From Astropecten irregularis (lineage: Eukaryota; Echinodermata; Asteroidea; Paxillosida; Astropectinidae): 64,000 nt of DNA. Positions 30,652 through 33,294 of the stretch are shown here, piece by piece (within the stretch, counting starts at the first letter, position 1; every line of letters starts with the position of its first letter). The stretch lies in assembly GCA_963971285.1 (NCBI GenBank), contig OZ020254.1, forward strand, positions 16,212,932 to 16,276,931. Reading direction: 5' to 3'. The notes under the pieces were generated by a model. That model ran no database searches and was not told the origin of the DNA. It worked only from the letters and a program-made list of their open reading frames with translations. Position numbers and translations under genes: made by a program.

Positions 30652-32288
30652 AAAAGGGTGCAGACATTCCGAAACTTACCCATCGTGTAGGAGTAGAGTA
30701 TCTCCAGAAAGAACTTGCCACGTTCTACAAGGATACAGCAAGCACCATCCCCATCCATCCAGCCGATCCAGCTCAAAGAGTAAATATTGAGAAGGGATTT
30801 TGTCCTTTAGAACTTGAACTGGAATCACAAACAAAACGCAAACACAAGGAAATGATTTCCGGGGAGCCTAAGATTTTGGACAGATTTCACACAGAACCCA
30901 TATCACTGGATGATTTGTTCAATGTGAAAAAGGTAGAGAGCTTGAAGGTAATTTGTTCAGGTAGAGCTGGGGTTGGTAAATCGATGCTGTGTCAGAAGGC
31001 TGCATATGAAAGCACTGATGTAAACGGTAAAAGTCAGGTTTCAACATTCAAACTTGTGTTTTGGATTCAGTTGAAAAAAATGCAAAAGACAAGCTGTGTC
31101 TTACAGGCCATTTTCGATCAAATTGAACCGCTTAACACTAAACTTGACAATCAGCATTTAAAAGAGATCATGGATGAAAACGAAGAACACACTCTCTATT
31201 TGCTGGATGGATTAGACGAGATTCCAGCTGATGTTTTAAAATCCCCAGAGGGTGCCTACAGAGTGAAGGATATCTTGCATAATAGAGTCTTGGTAAATAG
31301 CTTTGTACTGGTAACAACTCGGCCAGATATGAAAGATTATGTTATTAATGGATATCCTAACTATGCTAGGGTTCAAGCACTGGGATTTACATCTGAAACC
31401 ATCAACAAGTACATCCAATCTTACTTTGAAGACAATGTCGTCCGCACGAAATCTTTAATTGCTAGGTTACAATCAAGCCCATCACTGCATACACTGGCAC
31501 ATATTCCACTTATCACTCAATTTCTGTGCATACTTTGGGAGAATCGATCAGAATCTTTGCCTGATACTTTGACATCACTCTTTACAGAGTTTGTTGATGC
31601 TCTTTTCGGTAGACGTAAGGCAGTGAATGAAGAAAACATAATGCAAATGGAACCAGTTCGGAGCGAACTGGGACATCTCGCATTGGATGGATTACTAGAT
31701 CCAAAGCAAAAAACACTCAATTTCAAAGCACAAGAAGTGCATAGATATGGAAAGTCTACGTTGGAAGATGGGTGTAGATTTGGTTTCCTTCAAAAGGAAA
31801 GAGTAATAAGTGGACTGAGAGGGATGGACGTCGTACGTTTCCTCCACACGTCTTTCCAAGAATACTTTGCAGCAAACTATCTAACAAAGATGTTTCATTC
31901 TGACAAAAAAAAGTTCCTTCTCAAATTGAAACAGATCACCTTAGACAATGTATTCGACATGGAATATCTCCTTCGGTTTGTTTGTGGCATGTCTTCGCTC
32001 GCTGCTGGGTTCATTCTGGAACATATCAGGAAGATACAGGGTCATGATGAGGAAGGACTGCACAGATTGGCACGGTTGTTTTTATTTGAATCTGGATCAA
32101 AGGAGTTGGTGAGCAAAGTAGACCCACCGAGCAGGGTAGTAATTCTCAGTGGGGAGGAACTTAAAGCACTGCACAACTATATAGAGTGTAGGCGGCCTAT
32201 CCCCCAGCAACTGCCCCTGTACGGTATTCAGGAGGTCGCCGGTTCGAATCCCGCTCCAGTCAATTTTTCTTTGTTCACTTTTCAATGA
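30652..32288 (+). CDS. NLR gene: NACHT NTPase exon running into a tRNA-like repeat
   Basis: The exon begins after TTCTTTTTCAG (30651) in phase with 30257. It encodes a pre-NACHT helix region (HRVGVEYLQKELATFYKD) and then a NACHT domain: Walker A GRAGVGKS (30960-30983), Walker B LYLLDGLDE (near 31195-31220), sensor VLVTTRP (near 31310) and the downstream LHTSFQEYFAANYL winged-helix-type motif (near 31840). NACHT NLRs are cytosolic oligomerising ATPase receptors of innate immunity or cell death. From 32217 the frame leaves NLR sequence and translates a tRNA-derived repeat ([15 protein letters not shown]...) to a stop at 32286-32288. A stop here would give a receptor without LRRs. Alternatively the repeat array is spliced out. 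I am confident of the NACHT assignment, less so of whether the gene works. Confidence 0.85.
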
Positions 32289-32509
32289 CTTAAAATAACT
32301 CAGTCAGTTTCCCTTGTGGTTATTTCACGAATATAATAATTAAAAAGCCGTATCCTCTTTGAGTGATCCCCCATGTACCGTTCCCAGGTTGCAGCATTGC
32401 GTGTATCATTGAAACGATCCCTGGGGTGTGGCGGTGTGTGCGTGGTTTCATGGCTTCTGACTGCCAAACGAACAAAGATAGTTGACTATTGGGGTCACCA
32501 CCAACATAG

Positions 32510-32582
32510 GGCTGGATGGCTCAGTTGGTAGAGCGCCTGTACGGTATTCAGGAGGTCGCCGGTTCGAATCCCGCTCCAGTCA
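32510..32582 (+). tRNA. tRNA-like sequence 1 (pseudo-tRNA or SINE head)
   Basis: 73 nt that folds as a cloverleaf: 7-bp acceptor stem (one G-T), D arm GCTC/GAGC, anticodon arm CCTGT/TCAGG (one mismatch), loop ACGGTAT giving anticodon GGT (Thr) but C at position 33, and T arm GCCGG/CCCGC (one mismatch). The A box TGGCTCAGTTGG and B box GGTTCGAATCC are intact, and TTTTT follows at once. The base at position 33 and the two mismatches argue against a functional tRNA. Confidence 0.5.
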
Positions 32583-32829
32583 ATTTTTCTTTGTTCACTT
32601 TTCAATGACTTAAAATAACTCAGTCAGTTTCCCTTGTGGTTATTTCACGAATATAATAATTAAAAAGCCGTATCCTCTTTGAGTGATCCCCCATGTACCG
32701 TTCCCAGGTTGCAGCATTGCGTGTATCATTGAAACGATCCCTGGGGTGTGGCGGTGTGTGCGTGGTTTCATGGCTTCTGACTGCCAAACGAACAAAGATA
32801 GTTGACTATTGGGGTCACCACCAACATAG

Positions 32830-32902
32830 GGCTGGATGGCTCAGTTGGTAGAGCGCCTGTACGGTATTCAGGAGGTCGCCGGTTCGAATCCCGCTCCAGT
32901 CA
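32830..32902 (+). tRNA. tRNA-like sequence 2
   Basis: Identical to the copy at 32510, 320 bp downstream, with the same Pol III boxes and T-run. Confidence 0.5.
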
Positions 32903-33149
32903 ATTTTTCTTTGTTCACTTTTCAATGACTTAAAATAACTCAGTCAGTTTCCCTTGTGGTTATTTCACGAATATAATAATTAAAAAGCCGTATCCTCTTT
33001 GAGTGATCCCCCATGTACCGTTCCCAGGTTGCAGCATTGCGTGTATCATTGAAACGATCCCTGGGGTGTGGCGGTGTGTGCGTGGTTTCATGGCTTCTGA
33101 CTGCCAAACGAACAAAGATAGTTGACTATTGGGGTCACCACCAACATAG

Positions 33150-33222
33150 GGCTGGATGGCTCAGTTGGTAGAGCGCCTGTACGGTATTCAGGAGGTCGCC
33201 GGTTCGAATCCCGCTCCAGTCA
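33150..33222 (+). tRNA. tRNA-like sequence 3
   Basis: Identical third copy, 320 bp further on, about 75 bp before the LRR frame resumes. Confidence 0.5.
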
Positions 33223-33294
33223 ATTTTTCTTTGTTCACTTTTCAATGACTTAAAATAACTCAGTCAGTTTCCCTTGTGGTTATTTCACGAATAC

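Follow-up and report, generated by a model that had tools for sequence, protein, structure and literature searches.

An NLR gene of Astropecten irregularis carries within its coding exon an exact tandem array that is very probably a non-autonomous retroelement, reverse-transcribed into the NACHT-repeat coding exon from a tandem-multimer or circular RNA template. The gene lies in a 64,000-nucleotide stretch of contig OZ020254.1, which we refer to as the window. This interpretation draws on dispersed multimers, target duplications, 5' truncation, common priming sites, 5' inversions and uninterrupted paralogues. We further infer the form of the template RNA, an enzyme acting in trans, the loss of the C-terminal part of the protein, and the young age of the insertion.

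The NACHT part of the coding exon (30652..32215, forward strand) is preceded by a candidate splice acceptor, read by eye, at 30650-30651, and includes a NACHT domain at about 30948-31433 (Pfam PF05729, E=8.5e-17). Among solved sequences, NLRC4 and NLRP3 are the top matches of this protein. Beyond the array, the exon continues with a repeat part (33294..35379, forward strand) that contains three 660-bp blocks in frame and looks LRR-like by eye; no Pfam family was matched downstream of the array at 0.001. The initial annotation described an NLR gene split between NACHT and LRR. The NACHT assignment and the interruption of the frame stand, while the LRR label is a reading of motifs by eye. A fourth 660-bp block, which brings the repeat part to 33294-35929, lies out of frame with the other three (35351..35929, forward strand) and has lost 5 bp near 35361 relative to blocks 2 and 3. 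Because of this deletion, which constitutes a second frame break, the gene may have been partly broken before the array arrived. Upstream of the NACHT exon, an open reading frame contains about eight in-frame coding repeats of 75 bp (28776-29394; unit ATMDPDSKHKDDASTSGETRETTA).

The whole insert spans 1078 bp (32216..33293, forward strand) and is delimited by its exact periodicity and by the empty sites of the paralogues. From 32216, 758 consecutive matches at an offset of 320 extend to the array end at 33293, and TRF delimits 32216-33298 with a period of 320, 3.4 copies and 99% matches. All units lie on the forward strand. The insert opens with a 5'-truncated partial unit of 118 bp (32216..32333) that starts in the tRNA anticodon arm and whose BLAST match reaches unit position 203 of 323. 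Three full units follow (32334..32653, 32654..32973 and 32974..33293), the last of which stops at ACGAATA, the predominant 3' end in the family. As previously noted, these full units are identical letter for letter. They have in common a 3-bp deletion found in none of the 32 other loci with full units. The edges of the insert are ambiguous by 1 bp, a C common to both. The earlier description of tRNA-like units is equally well founded, as each of the three tRNA-like domains (32510..32582, 32830..32902 and 33150..33222, forward strand) scores 52.8 bits, where the gathering score is 29. ARAGORN reads these stretches as tRNA-Thr(GGT). By eye they resemble pseudo-tRNAs, with U33 absent and both the anticodon stem and the T stem mismatched, and TTTTT directly follows the tRNA part of the unit. 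No unusual RNA structure of the unit was found (z = -0.27).

The consequences for the reading frame agree with what had been proposed. The NACHT frame stops at 32286-32288, 23 residues inside the array, and the downstream frame is open from 33259. The insert is 1 mod 3 in length, and by coordinates the frame is made continuous by deleting 32217-33294 or, equivalently, 32216-33293. The array should thus truncate the receptor after NACHT, and the predicted product, which the initial annotation had also foreseen from the letters alone, would be devoid of the repeat part and would end in array-derived residues.

Paralogues of the gene offer a direct comparison, which the initial annotation had already envisaged. 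We searched the genome to which the window belongs (475.7 Mb in 168 contigs) with the NACHT protein and obtained 47 matches. The four nearest paralogues show 81-82% protein identity and open frames of 997-1,088 aa, with a stop inside the match of one of them (L050). We aligned 11 paralogue loci (L048-L058) over the array junction, and neither the array nor an intron was seen at the insertion site in any of them. The reading frame is kept over the site in 10 of the 11, the exception (L055) being shifted by an indel, and the repeat part continues the NACHT frame in the paralogues. One locus (L056) has short, older element pieces in its flanks, away from the array site. Judging by these alignments, the array interrupts what close paralogues show as a single uninterrupted coding exon. 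Once 32216-33293 is removed, the window is still 9 bp longer than all 11 paralogues between the flanking anchors. These extra bases sit on the left of the array, the difference is in-frame, and they may either belong to the insertion, for example as filler, or predate it.

Occurrences elsewhere in the genome identify the array unit, at the sequence level, as a dispersed genome-wide retroelement family. An exact search for the 40 bases of the unit junction gave 166 occurrences in the genome and, for a reversed control, 0. A single-unit query found 1,468 candidate places, 40 of which were scored (167 matches), and a whole-array query found 1,461, with the best 40 scored; candidates are first-look places, distinct from confirmed copies. 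We examined 40 insertions closely, the window's own included, made up of 24 distinct insertions among 30 loci (six overlapping) and 16 more from the single-unit search. The query was wrapped round the unit, which favours multimers; the 40 loci on which our interpretation is based were therefore selected as multimers, in a set that under-represents single-unit copies. Among the 40 best of the 1,461 candidates, the longest same-strand run comprises about 8 units (C9:3668603-3671237), and in a C9 array eight exact junctions recur every 324 bp. At another locus (G000, C8:5172550-5176165), about 6.8 units on one strand lie 313 bp apart from at least 3.4 units on the other. The window itself holds an older copy composed of two opposite pieces (54229..54577), the inverted form known from the family, between 13-bp target duplications read by eye at 54216-54228 and 54578-54590. 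A short, older copy also lies at 55978..56074 on the minus strand.

The 40 insertions bear several marks of retrotransposition. Using a strict test that demands an exact match of at least 7 bp, we found target duplications at 26 of 39 insertions, as compared with 39 of 1,482 mismatched flank pairs (longest mismatched match, 11 bp); L019 was dropped from this count because its left flank reads N. Three of the 13 insertions short of 7 bp (L016, L030 and L031) have duplications of 12-15 bp in a looser test, run without a control. The 5' ends are compatible with a uniform distribution over the unit (n=40, KS p=0.56), and none of the 40 falls at unit positions 1-16 or 303-323. A small excess lies at positions 17-25 (4/40, two at 17 and two at 25; binomial 0.025, with the span selected post hoc). 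The 3' ends fall at unit positions 320-323 in 26 insertions, at 275-288 in 13 and at 45 in one. Hence, 39 of the 40 end at two AT-rich sites. In the 3' flank, A+T makes up 78% of the first 15 bases. At least 18 of the 40 insertions carry an inverted 5' piece, and the outer ends of these 18 pieces lie at 271-292 in 13 cases, at 316-323 in four and at 43 in one. Outside the 18, the left flanks of L008, L024 and L044 open with antisense element sequence, as read by eye. That inverted pieces and 3' ends terminate at common sites is what twin priming on the AT-rich stretches of one RNA predicts.

Several observations bear on whether units are joined before or after they insert. Forward copies cross the unit junction 84 times, 40 of these crossings being forced by the query and 44 reckoned unforced. 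Moreover, the inverted pieces of two loci (L041 and L018) span the junction, and therefore joined units existed before insertion. Altogether, the sequences suggest that multimers insert as multimers, from a multimeric or circular RNA, with mosaic copies favouring multimeric RNA. The NLR copy would have arisen from a tandem multimer or circle of the ~323-nt unit with its tRNA-like domain. Presumably carried out in trans by an enzyme of LINE or Penelope type, reverse transcription would have been primed at the AT-rich site most used by the family (...TTATTTCACGAATA) and run through three entire units before halting in the tRNA anticodon arm of the fourth. Several findings count against this interpretation: the NLR copy, unlike most others, lacks a target duplication (3 bp being the longest exact match); it has the 9 bp on its left that all 11 paralogues lack; and the family shows the small excess of 5' ends at positions 17-25. 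The NLR copy also has no inverted piece, and 5' truncation is its sole retrotransposition hallmark. Its identical units and private deletion suggest that the copy is young, a pattern that homogenisation or later amplification also fits.

As regards the template, we consider it an even call whether linear multimeric transcripts of existing arrays are reverse-transcribed, with unequal exchange between units, or slippage of the template, maintaining copy number. The assembly contains same-strand runs that reach about 8 units, and some insertions are mosaics with ordered unit types. Differing units occur within seven insertions (L008, L010, L012, L015, L018, L038 and L041). L041 combines two unit types, one found in its inverted piece and in the forward unit upstream, the other in the two downstream units. 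The upstream forward units of L018 are matched by its inner inverted piece but not by the outer one. A mixed linear multimer would be the simpler explanation of these mosaics; switching between templates or exchange at a later stage could also produce them. However, the 40 candidates scored out of 1,461 include no long source array, and private variants in every full unit require a source homogenised for each insertion. The latter observation is better accommodated by a retrozyme-like cycle, in which the RNA of a single unit closes into a circle, repeated rounds of reverse transcription turn it into tandem cDNA, and this cDNA inserts. We regard such a cycle as possible, if tentative. Private variants are found in all full units of the window array (L001, the 3-bp deletion in 3/3), L036 (3/3) and L030 (2/2). 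Units within an insertion differ by 1.36 on average as against a permuted mean of 2.95, with 0 of 2,000 permutations as low. No insertion ends at the unit junction, the eight junctions of the C9 array are evenly spaced, and the architecture is as in metazoan retrozymes, so far as excerpts of the retrozyme literature describe it. Nevertheless, no hammerhead or other known self-cleaving ribozyme was found, and the differing units of the seven insertions, above all the L041 and L018 patterns, speak for a mixed linear multimer. On balance, we rate linear multimers somewhat above circles as the template and claim neither as shown. Template jumping end to end between linear unit-length RNAs is improbable. 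It would account for the coincidence of the main 3' end with the repeat junction as drawn, and for the four 5' ends at positions 17-25. Linear unit-length RNA should, however, leave ends at unit position 1, and the lack of any such end counts against it: 0 of 40 ends lie at positions 1-16, against the 84 crossings (44 reckoned unforced by the query). In addition, units resemble one another within an insertion much more closely than they do after shuffling.

Other explanations concern the NLR locus itself. The initial annotation attributed the identical units to a very recent amplification or an assembly product. The array does look recent, and both the identity of its units and the restriction of their deletion to this locus are what would be left if a single insertion had been amplified on the spot or if the array were an assembly artefact. 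An assembly fault in copy number would likewise give identical units, and the copy number could have altered since insertion. As an account of the array, we nonetheless consider in-place amplification or an artefact quite unlikely. On-the-spot amplification is unsupported as a general cause because comparable multimers are found at 39 other loci, mostly with target duplications and often 5'-inverted, and the junction-spanning inverted pieces of L041 and L018 likewise disfavour it. These 39 multimers show that the element can arrive already multimeric, and a pure assembly product is therefore unlikely. That the array is, or has turned into, a true intron is highly improbable. A weak donor (CCT|GTACGG) and an acceptor (CTACTTAG|) recognised by eye would preserve the frame, but these candidate sites are poor by eye and all 11 paralogue loci lack an intron there. 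Retrotransposition of a multimer into the exon remains the interpretation that we favour.

Among known elements, tRNA-derived SINEs have a tRNA-like domain, target duplications, no coding capacity and a presumed dependence on another element's enzyme. The family described here is similar in its tRNA-like domain (52.8 bits), target duplications, non-coding sequence and presumed use of a foreign enzyme. In contrast to SINEs, it is multimeric, with the tRNA domain inside the unit as drawn, and it has no fixed 5' end among the 40 multimeric loci, a set in which the query under-samples single copies. A further difference is the T-run right behind the tRNA part, a position where it should stop Pol III. 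Penelope-like elements form tandem, truncated and inverted copies, and so does the present family, whose 320-bp unit, unlike them, has no reverse transcriptase. Target duplications, 5' truncation and 5' inversion together place the family with target-primed retrotransposons. It does not form the long arrays of a satellite, the longest run being about 8 units in assembled sequence with 40 of 1,461 candidates scored.

Metazoan retrozymes come closest in form. They have been described as short repeats in tandem that bear type I hammerheads, show target duplications and give rise to circular RNA (PMC7229834, PMC7761336), and reverse transcription of the circular RNA into tandem cDNA has been proposed (PMC7229834, Cervera and de la Pena 2020; review PMC7761336). 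The family resembles them in its dispersed, tandem, non-coding units (within ~150-450 bp) and target duplications over 4 bp. By comparison, the element has a tRNA-like domain, and no hammerhead was found; its longest same-strand run of about 8 units contrasts with arrays of up to 62-mers reported for one coral in PMC7229834, which also mentions tandem copies of Penelope-like elements. No type I hammerhead was found by Rfam at E up to 10 on both strands of 2.1 window units, nor by a hammerhead motif search on the doubled consensus. We therefore did not file the element as a retrozyme, the hammerhead having been searched for and found absent. By analogy, the element may work in a like way to metazoan retrozymes. 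That it is a ribozyme-free retrozyme, in which the tRNA-like domain or host tRNA enzymes replace the hammerhead, yielding an endless RNA template and arrays that seed satellites, is a speculative and rather unlikely idea. Squamate SINE-derived satellites, likewise tandem repeats made of SINE sequence, are discussed in excerpts of PMC10702118 as originating from a first duplication by unequal homologous recombination or same-locus insertion; unlike those described there, the short arrays studied here seem mobile themselves. Among the papers listed in our literature search, none was seen to describe a comparable multimeric element with a tRNA-like domain but without a hammerhead, though one may still be published. 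Searches of viral contigs gave no relative of the NACHT protein, 13 stretches having fitted a pattern without any of them being confirmed, and no match to a unit pattern. Eight phage records matched, every one at annotated tRNA genes.

If our interpretation is right, tandem arrays can move as arrays and would form a bridge between dispersed retroelements and satellites. In that case, the absence of junction ends, the common priming sites and the mosaic units would serve as sequence-level tests of the template. The NLR copy is apparently a fresh truncating insertion in an immune receptor family, and its presence or absence could be scored between individuals. The window is also rich in other repeats. 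Tandem arrays of 186, 80 and 102 bp at 38768-39758 and 43160-44091 look related by eye (CGTCGG-rich), arrays of a ~130-bp unit with a CTTCCTGTTTGACCGGAAG stretch occur in two places (1922-4543 and 24914-25270), and a 77-bp tandem array lies at 56103-56915. A near-identical short ORF piece (DANEQLAESMNIRPYLIHNLNTTGKQRR...) is found twice, at 764-994 and 8349-8597. Finally, pieces resembling an ornithine aminotransferase gene can be recognised by eye in the translations of the minus strand, between about 53.7 and 63.2 kb.
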